Below, one piece after another: positions 3,081 through 9,310 of a stretch of 64,000 bases of DNA. Source of the DNA: a bacterium (GTDB lineage Bacteria; Bacillota; Clostridia; Lachnospirales; Lachnospiraceae); the NCBI GenBank assembly GCA_023663725.1, contig JAMPGX010000001.1, positions 62,001 through 126,000 on the forward strand. Direction: 5' to 3'. A program made the translations under genes and the position numbers. The notes under the pieces were generated by a model, which saw only the letters and a list, made by a program, of their open reading frames with translations, was not told where the DNA came from and did not search any database. How positions within the stretch are numbered: the first letter of the stretch is position 1; each line of letters opens with the position of its first letter.

Positions 3081-3144
3081 CTTACCCCTGCTCAAACTTC
3101 TCCCGCAGTTTCCCCAGCACCTTCTTCTCGATCCGACTCACATA
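3081..3144 (-). pseudogene. Detached 3' end of sigK (direct repeat copy A)
   Basis: Minus-strand translation gives YVSRIEKKVLGKLREKFEQG and a TAA stop, matching the last 20 residues of the intact sigma factor at 8675-9310 except one Ala-to-Val change and the stop codon (TAA here, TGA there). At DNA level 3084-3144 equals 8677-8737 with one mismatch (3119) in 61 bases. The upstream part of the gene is absent: identity ends abruptly at 3144/8737. I infer this is the displaced native 3' end, or one attachment-site half, of the island lying between the two copies. Confidence 0.85.
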
Positions 3145-3172
3145 CTCTCCTGTCAAGTTAGGGCTAAAAAAT

Positions 3173-4063
3173 CTACTCCAATTTCACAATCTCTGTTCGC
3201 TCCTCATCTGGATATATGTAAAGATATATAATGTCCTGCTCCTTATAGAAATACAGAACTCCACAAGCATTTCCTGTCTTTAGCCACTCTGCTTTCTTTT
3301 CTCGCTCTACAATAGGCCCTCTTCTTTTCATACCCGCATAATCAGTAACACGAATTTCACAATAATATGTACTTCCACAATACTCCACCCTCAAATCTAA
3401 ATCATCGTCAGCAAAAAGGAGTTTGTATTTTATCCCTTTTTCTTTTAATTTCTCTAATACCGCATATAGATCTTCTCCTGCCTTAGAGGTTCCACATCGA
3501 AACTCATCACTTTTTTCCTTTATTAAGGTACCATTTTCCAAATATGCTTTAATCTGCCAATCGATTTCAGAAAACCGAAGATCAGATGACTCATTTAACA
3601 CTTTATAAATTGTTTTTCTGATTTCCTCATTTTGCGCCTGTATTTGACGTATTTTACGGTAATAGCGTGAATTCAACTTTAAATAATCAATAAACTGTTT
3701 TCCTTGTAATGTAACACCTTGCAGTTTATAATAATTTTCCGCTCCCAGCCTAAGTATATGTGGATGTTCTCCCTCGTAAATATCATCTTTACACGGATTC
3801 AATATCATCTCTATATTCTGATCACTTTTGGTTCTATTGCATTTACAGCAAGAGTAAACCAAATTATCATAACAGTCAACATTCCATTCTACATCTGATT
3901 TCCTGGATACGAAATGGTCTTTCTCAAATAACTGTTCCCCCACCACATTATCCTTTTCCTGCATTCCACAATATGCACACTCGAAGTTAAAATCATTCCG
4001 AAGATACATTTTACATTTTTCAGAATTATAGGTGACCCAATGTCTTTTTCGTATATATGTCAT
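3173..4063 (-). CDS. HNH endonuclease, putative effector of the island
   Basis: This 296-residue protein has an N-terminal zinc-binding HNH nuclease module: C29-x2-C32, D49-H50 (EKDHFVSRKS), N67 and the C72/C73-K-C75-N76-R-x-K79 cluster. Those are all the elements expected for metal-dependent DNA cleavage. Residues of about 100-200 are helical. The last 95 residues (around DLDLRVEYCG, YYCEIRVTDYAG and GVLYFYKEQDIIYLYIYP) are beta-rich and could be a target-recognition or nuclease-like fold; I do not recognise them. The start abuts the receiver gene's TAA stop, with AAGGG 8 bases upstream, so translation is probably coupled. As the last gene of the methylase operon it is the likely restriction component. 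That role is inference from context. Confidence 0.85.
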   Translation of the reverse strand: MTYIRKRHWVTYNSEKCKMYLRNDFNFECAYCGMQEKDNVVGEQLFEKDHFVSRKSDVEWNVDCYDNLVYSCCKCNRTKSDQNIEMILNPCKDDIYEGEHPHILRLGAENYYKLQGVTLQGKQFIDYLKLNSRYYRKIRQIQAQNEEIRKTIYKVLNESSDLRFSEIDWQIKAYLENGTLIKEKSDEFRCGTSKAGEDLYAVLEKLKEKGIKYKLLFADDDLDLRVEYCGSTYYCEIRVTDYAGMKRRGPIVEREKKAEWLKTGNACGVLYFYKEQDIIYLYIYPDEERTEIVKLE

Positions 4064-4561
4064 TTATTCTTCCCTTTTTGTAGCTTTACTGATTTGCCGC
4101 AGTAAAAGATTCAGTTCTTCGTTTTTTTCATTCATAAGTGACAGTACATCATTATCCTTTCGCAAAGCACACGCTCGCCTTATTTTGGCTATCAATTCAC
4201 TCATTTTTTTCGTGTCTTTTAGTTCTGCCTTATTCAACTGATAATCATACTCTCCCAACTCATCCTTATAATCGTCCAGAGGATAATTTGTCAATAAAAC
4301 TGCATAAATATTACTATCATGACTCCTTATTTCTCGTAACACCTCAATTCCATTGTAGTCAACCGAAGCCTTTTCCAGTTCATGATCTATCAGTAAAAAG
4401 TCCACATCATTTTCGACCACAAAATCGTAAAACTCATCTAATGATTGCGGATATGAATCTATTCCTATCAATTTAATTCCAGGAAATAAGCTGAATCGTC
4501 CCTGCATCAAAGTGATATTTTTGGGTTCATCCTCAATATACAATCCTGTCAAAGTCTGCAT
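4064..4561 (-). CDS. Stand-alone response-regulator receiver protein
   Basis: This 165-residue protein has a complete receiver domain: acidic pair E10-D11, phospho-acceptor D59 (FLLIDHEL), T91 (VLLTNYP) and K111 (QLNKAEL). No DNA-binding or enzymatic output domain follows; the last 50 residues are a charged helix ending LLRQISKATKREE. Its ATG overlaps the stop of the ATPase/kinase gene as TAATG, with GGAGG 7 bases upstream. The neighbouring kinase carries a DHp-like His, so D59 is the obvious phosphate acceptor. I infer it acts by protein contact, for instance on the HNH nuclease or the methylase. Confidence 0.88.
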   Translation of the reverse strand: MQTLTGLYIEDEPKNITLMQGRFSLFPGIKLIGIDSYPQSLDEFYDFVVENDVDFLLIDHELEKASVDYNGIEVLREIRSHDSNIYAVLLTNYPLDDYKDELGEYDYQLNKAELKDTKKMSELIAKIRRACALRKDNDVLSLMNEKNEELNLLLRQISKATKREE

Positions 4562-6984
4562 TAAGCGTCCTCCTTCATAAAATGAACAACAAATTTCGCC
4601 CCGCCTAGATCTTTTGATTCTTCTACATATACCTCACCACTATAACTTGCCACAATATCCTTTACAATATTCAAGCCCAGCCCAATTCCATCTTCTTTTG
4701 TAGTTTTAAATGGCTTAAATATTTCCTCACGTATGTTTTCCGGCACCCCCAATCCGCTATCCTCAAAATATAGATAAATATCTTCTTCCCTCTGTTGAAA
4801 AATAATCTGTATCTTCTTTTTCTGTCTGGCCTTAATCTGCTCAAAGGCATTGGTAATCATATTAATAATAATGGATTCCAAATCAATCTGGCGCATCGTT
4901 CGACATATGCCGGCCTCTGTTATCAATTGCAAATCCACATGAAACGCCTCCAGCATACCCCGATACAGTCTGCAGATATTTCTCAGAACCTCACCAAAAT
5001 TTAAATCAGTTTGAGGACTTCTCTTTTTCTTTTTCAAGAATTCCACAATCATCAGACTATATCCCGAAATTCTGGTAAAATCTGATTTTATATTTTCCGT
5101 TATGTCAACAAAATACGGATTTTCAATCATTGAAGCCATCTCTGTATAAAAAGATAACGTGTTATCTATTCTGGAGATAATGTCCTGCGTTTCATGTCCA
5201 AAATTACCCGTTAAAATGCCAAGCGTGGCCAGATTCTTATACATGGACAGTTCCGTTTCCTGCATTTTCACATACTTTTCATATGCATTCTCTGTTTTTT
5301 CGTATTGCTCTTCTGTTTCCTTCTGCCTCTTCTCTTCTTTGGACTTCCACTGTTCCAATGAACTTGCTACAGTCTCAGGTGGCGCCCCTTTTTTTAATAG
5401 CTGTAACGTTTCTACAAATTGTTTTTCCTGAATATATTTCTGTTTCTCTGCTATTTGCTTTTGTTTCTGCCTTTTCTCTTTTTCCTTTTCCAGTTCAGGC
5501 TTTGACCTTTCATATTCTTCCCGCCTTATCTCCGATATCACTTCGATGCAAGTGAGAACAAATTTTTTCAGATGTTCATATGCCTCGTTTTCAATAATTC
5601 CCTCTCTGTTTGTCGCATCGATCAGGAGTGGATTTGTCTCATCGGATATCTTAATCACACCTATAGTCTGATTATTGCCAACGCGATATCCATGAGTATC
5701 GCTGACCTTAGATTTATCTAAGTTTAACCAGTCATTTTCAATATCCCCATATGGCTTTACTCGAAAATTGTCCCGATATATTTTTATTCCGGAATATAAA
5801 TTCAAAATTTCTATTGCCAGCCGATAATTATATGTTTCATTAGTCATATGAACGGAATCACGTAAAAAATAATACAATTCAAATGATATATCTCCGCAAA
5901 GCAAAGGCAATTCATATTCCATATTCTTTTCATCATTTTTGCCCGTTATATCCGAATACCTGATTTCAGACCTGGTTCCATTTGCATATATTCTGGCTGT
6001 CACCTTTGCATATTTTAAGTCCAAAATAGAGTTCACGCTGATTTCTTCCGGAATATTGAATTGATTGGCTATCAAATCAATATGAAAGGGATCTTTTTCA
6101 ATAAACTCAGGCGCTATAAGCAAGCGAAGTTCCTTCTGGAGCTTGTCAATATCTTTTTGTCTCCAGTTATCTCTCAAACCCTCCAAGACCATAACCAGAC
6201 CTGTATGCACAGACAGTTCCTCCCTGCCTTCCATTGCATACATTTCTTTTAATATATTATATGTCTCCTCACCCTCCCTGTTATCTATCTCCTCCAGAGG
6301 ATTGTAAATATTTTCCAGCTTTAGTTCCACTTTTTCCTGTTTCTTTAAAATCGGAATAATCTGGTTTTCAAAAAAATCCAAAAAAGCAGTATCATATGCC
6401 AGTTCATAATCACCGATTATCCCGCCAACTTTTTCCCTCACATAACCCTGCTCAATTCCATCACTCAACTGCAGAGACAAATAATATTCCACCTGATTTG
6501 CTATATATTTTGCCGCTGAAGCATCATTCTTATTACGTAAAATCTGAACTCTCTGCTGTAATCCGGAAATTGATATTTCTTCATAAAGATTCCAATTCAA
6601 AAAAACCTTAAATGACTCCTCCTTAGTAAAAGAATAAATAACTGCACGCTCTGCCAATCGCTCTACCGAGAAACGACCAATTCCCTTTTTACCTGCCTTT
6701 TTCCTTCCTTTTAGTGTATATGGCAAACTCAATTTATTGCTTGTCCCAATTACCATCCAACGGTTTTCAAACTCATATTCCGTCATGCCACATCCTGTGT
6801 CCGCTACAATAATGCGGCTATTGGGTGTATTAGCATTTTCTATCATTATCCGCACGCTTGGCGCATCCGCATCATAGGCATTTTTAACCAACTCTACCAG
6901 AGCTGTGACAAAGTCAGTGACCAGTTCACGGCCCAATTGCCCAATATGTCTGGAATTTGTTTTAAATTGTAGATTTTTCACCAT
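4561..6984 (-). CDS. Dual GHKL protein: MORC/Hsp90-like ATPase fused to histidine kinase
   Basis: This is an 807-residue soluble protein with two separate GHKL ATP-binding modules. The N-terminal one has ELVKNAYDADA (E31, N35, D38), ADTGCGM (62-67) and a GKKGIGRFS lid motif, as in MutL/Hsp90/MORC-type ATPases. A long charged coiled coil (about residues 490-590) leads to a DHp-like helix with H597 (GNFGHETQDI), then a kinase-type ATPase with N712 (MITNAFEQ), DSGLG (742-746) and GIGLGLNIVKDI (from about 767). There is no membrane segment, so it should sense a cytoplasmic signal. I chose the ATG at 6984: GAGGT lies 7 bases upstream, and it clears the methylase stop by 13 bases. A start at 7023 would overlap the methylase gene. 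GHKL ATPases of the MutL/MORC type are known to occur beside restriction-modification genes; the joint kinase/receiver arrangement here is the unusual part. Confidence 0.87.
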   Translation of the reverse strand: MVKNLQFKTNSRHIGQLGRELVTDFVTALVELVKNAYDADAPSVRIMIENANTPNSRIIVADTGCGMTEYEFENRWMVIGTSNKLSLPYTLKGRKKAGKKGIGRFSVERLAERAVIYSFTKEESFKVFLNWNLYEEISISGLQQRVQILRNKNDASAAKYIANQVEYYLSLQLSDGIEQGYVREKVGGIIGDYELAYDTAFLDFFENQIIPILKKQEKVELKLENIYNPLEEIDNREGEETYNILKEMYAMEGREELSVHTGLVMVLEGLRDNWRQKDIDKLQKELRLLIAPEFIEKDPFHIDLIANQFNIPEEISVNSILDLKYAKVTARIYANGTRSEIRYSDITGKNDEKNMEYELPLLCGDISFELYYFLRDSVHMTNETYNYRLAIEILNLYSGIKIYRDNFRVKPYGDIENDWLNLDKSKVSDTHGYRVGNNQTIGVIKISDETNPLLIDATNREGIIENEAYEHLKKFVLTCIEVISEIRREEYERSKPELEKEKEKRQKQKQIAEKQKYIQEKQFVETLQLLKKGAPPETVASSLEQWKSKEEKRQKETEEQYEKTENAYEKYVKMQETELSMYKNLATLGILTGNFGHETQDIISRIDNTLSFYTEMASMIENPYFVDITENIKSDFTRISGYSLMIVEFLKKKKRSPQTDLNFGEVLRNICRLYRGMLEAFHVDLQLITEAGICRTMRQIDLESIIINMITNAFEQIKARQKKKIQIIFQQREEDIYLYFEDSGLGVPENIREEIFKPFKTTKEDGIGLGLNIVKDIVASYSGEVYVEESKDLGGAKFVVHFMKEDA

Positions 6985-6997
6985 AAGACGTACCTCA

Positions 6998-8428
6998 CTA
7001 AAACCTATATTGCTTAATATCATTAACGGAAACCCTATATGATGTCTCTGTTGTAGGAGTGCCTACCATTTTGACATATTGATAGAAATCCATACTTTGC
7101 AGAATTCTTGCAGCATCATCTAAAGTATAACATGAATTCTCTTTCTGTGTAATAAAATACCCCGCATATGGAACCGCATCTCTGTCTCCCCAATATACCT
7201 TGGCCTGTTTTGTTATTACCATTGGTAAAACCAGTTTCTCTTTCCATAACTCCTTAAGTGCCTGAGATCTGCCATATTCAAACCATTGTGCATTTTTGTC
7301 ACTCTTTCTACTCTTCAGCCTCTTCTTAAATTGAGTCAAATATTGATATGCATATGGATACAACTGCTTAAATTCTCTTTCTCTATATTTTTCTATCTTC
7401 CTTTCTTCTCTTTTGTAGGGAAAAATTATATATTGTCTCTCTGCTTGCTTTTTCTTTTCACTTTTTGTACTTATCGCTTTCAAACAAATTGCCTTTTCCA
7501 CTTTTTGCTTTTCTATGTACAAGTAGCATTCATCTTCTTTTGTGGGCTTAATCAAAAATGCCTCATTTAGCAATGTGGCCACACTGTTACAGACATCAAA
7601 ATATTCGTCAAACTGCTCTTGTCCATTAACCACCTTCTGAAAGACCCATTTCTTATCGTCCTCACATAGATGTTTTTTTTGAATTATTATTTTTTTACCT
7701 GTTTTACTCACCTCATACAGTATCTTATCACTAACTTTTCCTTTTTTATAGAGAAGGAAAGCAACAGAGCAGGTAATGCCCGGAAAGACACTTTCTCCAC
7801 TTAAGTCAACCACTCCTGTCATCCCATCAACTATAAAGTTCCGTAGCTCTCTCGCATATCTATTTCTAAAAATACTAAACGGTATTAAGTAAATCATCTT
7901 TCCATCAGGTTCTAATGCGTTTATACTGGCCTCAATAAAAGCATAACAATAATCAAATCTTCCTTTTTTGCACACCTCATAATGCTTTTTAAGATACCGC
8001 CTCTCTTCTTCTGTCATATCATGATATGTGATATATGGAGGATTTCCAACAATAAATGATGCTTTGATTTCGTCAGTATTATAGGTTAAAAAATCGTGAT
8101 TCCGTATATTCCACCGCACATTCTCTATTCCACTGGAACTACAGGTTCTGTTGAGATGTTCGATACATTTCTCCCGTTGTTCTGGATCAACTTCAAATCC
8201 TATGATATTTTGGGACAAGCCTTCTGCTATATACTCATTTGTTAATCCCTGTGTCCTTGCATCTTTAATATATCTTTTAACTATCGACACCAGTATGTTT
8301 CCCTGGCCACACGAGTTTTCCAGAACAGTTTTACCTACCAGATTTTTTACATATCCTATTCGATCCAACATATCTTCCACATATTTGTCAGGAGTGAATA
8401 TCTGATCATTCCTATTCTTTTTCGCCAT
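6998..8428 (-). CDS. N6-adenine DNA methyltransferase (TaqI/Eco57I-like)
   Basis: This 476-residue predicted S-adenosylmethionine-dependent DNA methylase has the cofactor motif LENSCGQGN (36-44) and the catalytic NPPY motif (129-132, IVGNPPYITYHD). A downstream acidic motif lies around DGKMIYLIPFSIF. The C-terminal third (KLVLPMVITKQAKVYWGDRD to the end) resembles the TaqI-type target-recognition domain. At 476 residues it has no room for a fused nuclease like those of type IIG enzymes, so cleavage must come from elsewhere, presumably the HNH gene in the same operon. It is the first gene of the operon. The ribosome site before ATG 8428 is weak (AAGG 14 bases upstream). The recognition sequence cannot be read from the protein. 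Confidence 0.9.
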   Translation of the reverse strand: MAKKNRNDQIFTPDKYVEDMLDRIGYVKNLVGKTVLENSCGQGNILVSIVKRYIKDARTQGLTNEYIAEGLSQNIIGFEVDPEQREKCIEHLNRTCSSSGIENVRWNIRNHDFLTYNTDEIKASFIVGNPPYITYHDMTEEERRYLKKHYEVCKKGRFDYCYAFIEASINALEPDGKMIYLIPFSIFRNRYARELRNFIVDGMTGVVDLSGESVFPGITCSVAFLLYKKGKVSDKILYEVSKTGKKIIIQKKHLCEDDKKWVFQKVVNGQEQFDEYFDVCNSVATLLNEAFLIKPTKEDECYLYIEKQKVEKAICLKAISTKSEKKKQAERQYIIFPYKREERKIEKYREREFKQLYPYAYQYLTQFKKRLKSRKSDKNAQWFEYGRSQALKELWKEKLVLPMVITKQAKVYWGDRDAVPYAGYFITQKENSCYTLDDAARILQSMDFYQYVKMVGTPTTETSYRVSVNDIKQYRF

Positions 8429-8674
8429 GAGTCCAAACAGCCTTTCTGCATATTTCAGTCACAAATTAGTGAATAAATCTTACCAAGTGCGATTTCTTGT
8501 CCATTGGCCTTTTTATTATATGCAATTTACGCCCAAAAAGCAATACAGATTTCCTATCCTTATACGCCTCCTGACAAAAATGTCTGCCTGTATGCTAATT
8601 AAGGCAAAATCTCTTTGCCACATACGGGACAATGGATTTTGCCTTATAGCTATGACACGTTTCCCCCTGTATAC
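8429..8674. promoter_or_regulatory. Island 5' region with 12-bp perfect inverted repeat
   Basis: This gap of 246 bases between the methylase start and the sigK stop holds the promoter of the island operon. A perfect inverted repeat, TAAGGCAAAATC (8600-8611) and GATTTTGCCTTA (8635-8646), with a 23-base spacer, lies 29 bases beyond the sigK stop. The long spacer and lack of a T run argue against a simple terminator. An operator or recombination-protein site is possible. No gene is seen. Confidence 0.5.
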
Positions 8675-8737
8675 TCACCCCTGCTCAAACTTCTCCCGCA
8701 GTTTCCCCAGCGCCTTCTTCTCGATCCGACTCACATA
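8674..8737 (-). repeat. Direct repeat copy B (sigK 3' end, intact gene)
   Basis: This is the partner of 3081-3144. The core 8677-8737 differs from the distal copy at one base in 61. It encodes the last 20 residues of SigK. The two copies mark the island ends; the crossover point lies somewhere inside the identical stretch. Confidence 0.88.
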
Positions 8738-9310
8738 GCTCCTCGAGATCCCCAATCTCTCCCCGATCTCGCTCTGGGTCAGCTCGCGGTTCCCCCACAG
8801 CCCGTACCGCAGCAGCAATATCTCCCTCTCCCGCTCCGTCAGTTCCTGCTGCATCAGCGCCATCAGCCTGCGGACATTGCCCCGCAGCTCCAGCGCCTCC
8901 ACCACATCCGGCTGCTCCTGCTCGATCACGTCCATCAGATGGATCTCGTTCCCCTCTTTGTCCTGCCCGATGGGTTCGTAGAGAGATACCTCCCTCGACG
9001 TCTTTTTCTTGCTGCGCAGCAGCATCAGCAGCTCGTTGTCAATACATCTACAGGCGTAGGTGGCCAGCCGGCCCTTCCCAGCGTCAAAGGTGTCTATGGC
9101 CTTGATCAAACCGATACAGCCAATGGATATCATGTCTTCCATATCTTCGTCCACATTCTGATATTTCTTGGCCACATGAGCTACCAGACGCAGATTACGT
9201 TCTATGAGAATGTCCTTGGCAGCTTTGGCCTGCTCAGCATCTCCCTCCCTGAGCAGGCGGACATAACAGGCTTCTTCTCCAGAGGTCAAAGGCTTTTGAA
9301 AGGTCTTCAA
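8675..9310 (-). CDS. sigK: RNA polymerase sporulation sigma factor SigK
   Basis: This 211-residue sigma-70-family protein has region 2 with [13 protein letters not shown] and [26 protein letters not shown], and region 4 with [25 protein letters not shown]. The N terminus [14 protein letters not shown] is typical of SigK (compare the KPLS/T-x-EEE start) rather than SigE, which has a longer pro-sequence. Translation starts at a TTG with GGAGG 6 bases upstream. In several Bacilli and Clostridia sigK is interrupted by a skin element; here it is continuous, but an island abuts its 3' end and a second copy of that end lies 5.6 kb away. It would direct late mother-cell transcription in sporulation. 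Confidence 0.88.
   Translation of the reverse strand: [211 protein letters not shown]

Follow-up and report, generated by a model that had tools for sequence, protein, structure and literature searches.

Described Systems Closest to the Module

How close do described systems come to a gene set that joins a DNA methylase to a histidine kinase, a receiver, and a nuclease? Such a set of four genes lies at positions 3173 to 8428 of a 64,000-nucleotide stretch of the genome of a gut bacterium of the Lachnospiraceae (GenBank assembly GCA_023663725.1, contig JAMPGX010000001.1, positions 62,001 to 126,000; the whole stretch is called the window here), and on balance the sequences favor, if only just, reading this module as a mobile restriction-type defense system under the control of a two-component relay. 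Of bacterial signaling devices such relays are the best known, yet restriction is usually understood to depend on direct recognition of DNA. Two-component elements occur in phage defense in Detocs, which has a nucleotide-degrading effector and is not known to include a methylase.

In Listeria monocytogenes, one sentence of a 2010 paper names a two-component system (LM5578_1852/1851) together with restriction-modification (R-M) components (LM5578_1850/1853) in the island LGI1 (PMC2834635; this and the three papers that follow are cited from parts of their text). In 2021, HEF_HK/Response_reg_2 (PF19191/PF19192) was proposed as a cytoplasmic two-component system, with a receiver linkage of 91.6% within three genes and an enrichment of R-M genes that includes methylases, Vsr, and HNH_2, the last being the commonest endonuclease near the pair (PMC8011034). 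In MORC/paraMORC operons, a GHKL ATPase that adjoins methylases and nucleases was proposed to control the linked nucleases, and paraMORC1 is mentioned with HNH endonucleases (PMC2292703). Control of a nuclease by a GHKL ATPase was also proposed for VcSduA (GHKL-Shedu), for which phage defense has been demonstrated (PMC12137116).

How does the locus in the window compare? Its four genes, identified as open reading frames (ORFs) and by the evidence given in parentheses, are:

6998 to 8428, minus strand: stand-alone N6-adenine-type DNA methylase of the Eco57I family with an NPPY motif, 476 amino acids (aa) (Pfam, PADLOC)
4561 to 6984 (possible ORF start 7023), minus strand: dual-GHKL protein, 807 aa (Pfam, alignment)
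4064 to 4561, minus strand: stand-alone receiver, 165 aa (Pfam, NF052378)
3173 to 4063, minus strand: zinc-type HNH nuclease, 296 aa (Pfam, PADLOC)

The module shares the layout described for HEF_HK loci—a kinase with HATPase_c_3, histidine helices, and HATPase_c, with the receiver adjacent here and nearby there—but its operon is fixed and includes an N6-type methylase and a PtuB-like HNH protein, whereas C5 methylases dominate around HEF_HK (PMC8011034). Profile tests on the window and its viral relatives rejected membership in these families. PF19191 had no match in the module at E up to 10 (best genome matches E 0.39 or worse), PF19191 and PF19192 had none in the window proteins at E up to 1, and at E up to 1e-3 there was none for PF19191 in 61 viral kinases or for PF19192 in the 59 proteins encoded downstream of viral kinases. 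The tie to Listeria LGI1 runs through the receiver, because NF052378, an already named NCBIfam family that takes its name from LM5578_1851, matches the window receiver at 255.7 bits (cut-off 150). The likeness is drawn through this family and not through Listeria sequences; the LGI1 genes, which the cited part of the 2010 paper does not analyze as a system, lie in a 50-kb island with serine recombinases, whereas the window module is a 5.6-kb insertion at sigK (PMC2834635).

MORC/paraMORC, as described in the cited text, lacks the histidine-kinase half and the receiver (PMC2292703). Of its layout, an N-terminal GHKL domain and then S5, the GHKL domain is present in the window protein, followed in a weak structure model by a mixed helix/strand region. 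VcSduA is one protein with a PD-(D/E)xK nuclease domain, and the cited text names neither a receiver nor a methylase (PMC12137116). Septu (PtuAB) is approached through the window HNH protein, which resembles PtuB (PADLOC, E 7.8e-12 over residues 12–164), but there is no PtuA-type ABC ATPase among the four window genes; a kinase, a receiver, and a methylase are there instead.

A preliminary description of this DNA had called for a check against defense profiles. In PADLOC 2023, no model spans the length of the kinase or of the receiver: the kinase is matched in its N-terminal ATPase part only (REase_II, TmtA, and MzaB, all within residues 26–146), and the best match of the receiver is PDC-M60B (E 0.0084). 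The matches of the 61 viral kinases are to REase_II (52 and 34 members) and MzaB (1) only. The same description knew of no described system with this exact set. That holds for the set as one system, of which we found no account in a literature search limited to open-licence papers, mostly at listing level; the association, however, has been in print since 2010 (PMC2834635), and a parallel pair since 2021 (PMC8011034). Given the Listeria mention and the later proposal from other families, the module is a distinct branch, apparently unrecognized as a system, of an idea that has been published before.

The Four Genes Recur Together

Do the four genes belong together? One scan of genome contigs with the GHKL protein returned 20 loci, two of which (L057 and L058) were dropped as short-segment matches. 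All 18 remaining close relatives have the GHKL, receiver, and HNH genes in the same order, ~60 bases apart or less, and a methylase gene lies directly upstream of the GHKL gene in 17/17 relatives with upstream sequence. The GHKL protein is whole in 17 relatives (L054 begins inside the gene), and the L045 contig holds only part of its HNH gene. Recurrence of the four-gene set was the test that the preliminary description had set for itself, and the set does recur, in the 17 testable close relatives and in 9/9 viral-contig loci with a window-type HNH gene (below). The labeled hosts are Lachnospiraceae, Clostridiaceae, Oscillospiraceae, and Acutalibacteraceae. Because some modules are near-duplicates (L049 and L055), the 18 relatives are not 18 independent events. 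Most flanks differ: a flanking homologue is common to 21 of the 153 locus pairs, several shared flanks marking one insertion site (some flanks are short, with one ORF in L040, two in L045, and none counted in L054). Module G+C is 36.2% against 50.3% for the window, and it is below that of the flanks in all 15 relatives measured.

The core genes are co-inherited, and the methylase is exchanged around them. Across 17 loci, identity matrices correlate at 0.94–0.98 among GHKL, HNH, and receiver (GHKL–HNH 0.977, GHKL–receiver 0.937) and at 0.80–0.91 with the methylase (receiver–methylase 0.796). Ten of the upstream methylases are of the window family and seven of another N6-type family of ~635 aa (Pfam was run on three of the seven). 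The GHKL protein and receiver of L047 belong to a second clade (66–71% identical to L050 and L055), yet its methylase is of the window family (41% identical to that of the window and <20% to the four second-family methylases compared). L047 thus joins a second-clade core to a window-family methylase, evidence that methylases have been exchanged around a constant core.

Domains and Catalytic Residues

The preliminary description had read the locus as four coupled minus-strand genes for an N6-type methylase, a protein with two types of ATPase, a complete receiver (D59, T91, and K111), and a zinc HNH nuclease, and profiles and alignments agree on each point. All four ORFs lie where it had placed them: the receiver ATG overlaps the GHKL stop codon as TAATG, and the HNH gene abuts the receiver gene. 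The first ATG of the GHKL ORF (4561–7023) gives 820 aa. The start is nonetheless likely at base 6984 (807 aa), since 13 of the 17 relatives with that end start at the position corresponding to codon 14 or 15; this leaves 13 bases between the methylase and GHKL genes, and the earlier residue numbers agree with the 807-aa reading.

The methylase matches Pfam Eco57I (1.4e-19) and PADLOC MTase_II (4.1e-60), its NPPY and motif I residues are invariant in 11 rows (window plus 10 relatives), and these motifs predict adenine N6 as its target. The dual-GHKL protein carries a MutL/Hsp90-type HATPase_c_3 domain at its N terminus (Pfam, 3.9e-21), followed by a middle region, a long helical stretch, a helix pair with H597, and a C-terminal HATPase_c kinase domain (1.1e-23). 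E31 and H597 are invariant in 18/18 rows (window plus 17). In the C-terminal 230 residues, the helix pair and ATPase can be aligned with the solved kinase 3a0r (E 4.4e-17), HE of the query facing HE of 3a0r, and the N-terminal domain has weak matches to TRAP1 (E 0.0084) and PMS2 (E 0.045). A low-confidence model (pLDDT 62.8, pTM 0.43) predicts helices at 467–531, 536–592, 597–617, and 623–651 and a helix/strand domain after them.

The kinase has the acceptor histidine and the N, G1, and G2 boxes, and the receiver has the acid pair (E10 and D11), D59, T91, and K111, with a C-terminal tail beyond. D59, T91, and K111 are invariant in 19/19 receiver rows (window plus 18). The Response_reg match (2.8e-5) is under Pfam's own cut-off. 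The invariance of H597 and these three residues makes a working His–Asp relay likely. Assignment to cREC (PF20274) was considered and rejected (E 0.014 only), the full D/T/K set and the kinase partner arguing otherwise. The HNH protein (Pfam HNH, 1e-5) consists of a PtuB-like N-terminal half and a C-terminal part of unassigned function. Its C29, C32, C72, C75, D49–H50, N67, N76, and K79 are invariant in 18/18 rows (window plus 17, L045 being omitted). A PD-(D/E)xK site was looked for in the C-terminal part, where D223 and C235–E236 are invariant; the expected lysine is absent, so we claim no second active site.

Relatives on Viral Contigs and Plasmids

How far does the arrangement extend beyond close relatives? 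An alignment search of viral contigs found 66 relatives, 63 of them distinct. Both ATPase domains are present, and the acceptor histidine is invariant, in all 61 viral kinases scanned (all but L153 and L156). A same-strand gene follows within 150 bases in 59/63 loci (three others reach the contig end, and one has an opposite-strand gene). The aspartate equivalent to D59 is invariant in all 59 downstream proteins; at a threshold of E 1e-3, only five match PF00072 and four NF052378. In a set of nine distant receivers, D59, T92, and K111 are all conserved (9/9). All nine viral loci with an adjacent window-type HNH gene hold the four genes, at a GHKL identity of 23–30%. The methylase gene lies upstream in five of these loci and follows the HNH gene in the other four; its match is weak in L108 (E 3.3e-6) and L110 (E 2.2e-4). 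Profile comparison of these nine loci with the window gave probabilities of 97.7% for the receivers and 99.5% for the HNH domains.

Effectors, like methylases, change around the constant kinase–receiver pair. A metallo-beta-lactamase-fold (MBL) gene takes the place of the HNH gene in three viral loci and also on plasmids (L114, L115, and L119; L179, L180, and L182); Vsr is the downstream gene in two viral loci, and one downstream viral protein matches HNH_2. Methylase models matched among 43 upstream viral genes are Eco57I (13), C5 (7), and N6_N4 (7). In long receiver-like proteins encoded after the kinase (e.g., L121, L123, and L157), the C-terminal part matches almost no Pfam model; these are possibly receiver–effector fusions.

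On plasmids, a Burkholderia record has the order methylase, ATPase, response regulator, and MBL, and a Hymenobacter record has a like layout with MBL. A Pseudanabaena plasmid has the kinase and MBL, with no methylase within the stretch examined, and a Klebsiella plasmid has the HNH-type layout with a broken kinase frame. The window kinase as query found two plasmid records (27% coverage) and no phage match, and a distant viral kinase found 64 plasmid records, 41 of them Campylobacter. The window HNH protein and receiver had no plasmid match at E 1e-8, and the L108 module had no near match among Escherichia coli genomes.

A Candidate Relay and Its Alternatives

What might such a module do? Since other bacteria and sequences of viral origin also carry these four genes as a group, the module probably serves DNA defense, and it is probably switched by a phosphate relay. 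The simplest reading of its constant and exchangeable parts is a self-marking methylase, a sensor ATPase, an H597–D59 relay, and a licensing receiver. The methylase would mark host DNA at adenine N6. The dual-GHKL protein would be a soluble sensor kinase in which the N-terminal MutL/MORC/Hsp90-type ATPase replaces the sensor domain and detects unmarked or foreign DNA, and the helical rod would transmit the switch to the C-terminal histidine kinase. That kinase would autophosphorylate H597 and pass the phosphate to D59, and the phosphorylated receiver, on which no DNA-binding domain was found, would bind and license the HNH nuclease. The signal, the direction of the switch, the nuclease as output, and its gating by the phosphorelay are what we infer from these parts. 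A relay interposed between sensing DNA and cutting it would, if real, allow graded and reversible control of a dangerous nuclease, and with a constant kinase–receiver pair and exchangeable methylases and effectors, the question is directly testable through point mutants of H597 and D59.

Several observations weigh against a licensing relay. No sequence motif points to the signal of the N-terminal ATPase or to the activating state of the receiver, and the GHKL structure model is weak. In a profile alignment of 79 kinases, the histidine position is filled in 54, every time by H, and gapped in the other 25; the 59-row downstream alignment averages 9% identity. Most of these downstream viral proteins (46/59) are long (260 aa or more), and every locus with an HNH (nine) or MBL (three) partner has one of the 13 short ones, so the relay does not always serve a separate nuclease. 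The close family is also rare, found at E 1e-60 in 1/391 genomes of the class—the window's own—and with the receiver family above its cut-off in 1/299 genomes of the family.

Somewhat short of an even chance, in our judgment, is the broader proposition that these loci form a broad class of immunity in prokaryotes, with a His–Asp relay deciding on restriction: a MutL/MORC-like clamp would read DNA, its fused kinase would signal by phosphate, one receiver would drive exchangeable HNH or MBL effectors, and the methylase would be an exchangeable self-mark. The window branch would then be recombinase-less cassettes at the 3′ end of sigK.

The main rival, unlikely but the best placed of the alternatives, reverses the sign of the relay: in a MutL-like licensing scheme the N-terminal ATPase would load or activate the HNH nuclease directly, and the phosphorylated receiver would be an off-switch, braking the nuclease until infection drains the phosphate. 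The proposals that GHKL ATPases control linked nucleases in MORC/paraMORC (PMC2292703) and VcSduA (PMC12137116) lend it weight. The conserved residues it calls on are identical to those behind the licensing receiver; signaling direction is not readable from sequence, and nothing there separates the two.

Could the relay instead stand outside the restriction machinery? By sequence family, a methylase and a nuclease lie within one operon and could form an ordinary type II R-M pair, whose expression alone the adjoining two-component system would regulate, and two-component genes usually regulate transcription. We consider this improbable: neither Pfam nor alignment found a DNA-binding domain on the receiver, none of the 18 close relatives has lost the kinase or the receiver, whereas the methylase family varies among them, and the 27 promoter-like matches in the region are not clearly beyond chance (20.6 in shuffles, standard deviation 4.1). 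Slightly less probable again is abortive infection, with the HNH nuclease killing the infected cell and the methylase shielding the chromosome until the relay fires. The HNH protein is PtuB-like, and L049, L050, and L055 have an AbiEi-like gene immediately before the methylase gene (profile-checked for L050), but such a gene was recognized in that place in only these 3/17 loci, and a methylase in 17/17 testable close relatives suits self/non-self discrimination better. A role outside defense, in DNA repair or mobile-element maintenance, is very improbable despite the MutL-type ATPase, the Vsr genes after the receiver in two distant loci, and the mobile look of the module, for the kinase is accompanied by restriction-type methylases of several families, and viral contigs, plasmids, and insertions are common places for defense genes.

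Insertion at the 3′ End of sigK

The candidate defense module is a 5.6-kb insertion at the 3′ end of sigK. A direct repeat of the final 64 nt of sigK (97% identity) lies at the opposite end of the module; the preliminary description had passed over both this repeat and the low G+C of the module. The features that mark the insertion are:

8674 to 8737, minus strand: left attachment copy, the last codons and stop of sigK, probably element-borne (repeat comparison)
3081 to 3144, minus strand: right attachment copy, the displaced sigK tail, directly beyond the conserved right end (repeat comparison)
3145 to 3163, minus strand: conserved right-end sequence of the inserted element, 19 nt (cross-locus comparison)
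8590 to 8672, minus strand: strong hairpin just past the sigK stop (fold −27.2 kcal/mol, z −4.46)

L039 has both module ends in common with the window, and a similar inverted repeat is readable in it. L041 has the same module with a decayed right end; just upstream of that module, a right-end sequence runs into another sigK tail. In G022, a genome of the window's genus, a pilT-like gene lies ~200 nt past sigK, and the window's genome has its pilT homologue on the far side of the insertion, just past the edge of the window. The window ORF list has no recombinase inside the module. With both attachment sites and no internal recombinase, the module is what we take to be a CIME-like cis-mobilizable element.

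The sigK 3′ end is an insertion hot spot, occupied by cassettes of differing cargo that share a right end followed by a sigK tail. The set comprises the window (3145–8737), L193, L195, L196, L197, L198, L099, L041, and L039. Cassettes occur in 7/61 genomes of the window's genus, its own included (G833 resembles the L039 assembly), and also in L041 and in G283 (L099), which has two copies 3.0 kb apart. Of seven genomes matched in another search, five showed neither a sigK tail nor a longer right end next to the match, and these were treated as chance. Judged largely by eye, the cargo includes the four-gene set described here, an ABC-transporter-like gene, a 1272-aa protein, an HNH gene, and Uma2 (Pfam). 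Inspection by eye of the cassette stretches showed no complete recombinase. An 87-aa ORF beyond the right end in L196 (9182–9445) looks by eye like a tyrosine-recombinase C terminus and may be the remnant of a mobilizing integrase. In four cassettes the last gene before the right end encodes, by eye, an AAA-ATPase-like protein (L099 2637–4325, L195 1617–3380, L196 5399–7138, and L197 6519–8207), which could be cargo or insertion machinery.

A second preferred insertion site is suggested by the upstream homologue shared by L042, L043, L044, L045, and L056, and three ORFs near the L042 module were judged by eye to be serine-recombinase-like. The sigK frame of the window (8675–9310) matches TIGR02846 only from model position 25, its N terminus being short or elsewhere. 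L041 (6765–7199) has only the 3′ part of a sigK-like gene, as if another element had split sigK.

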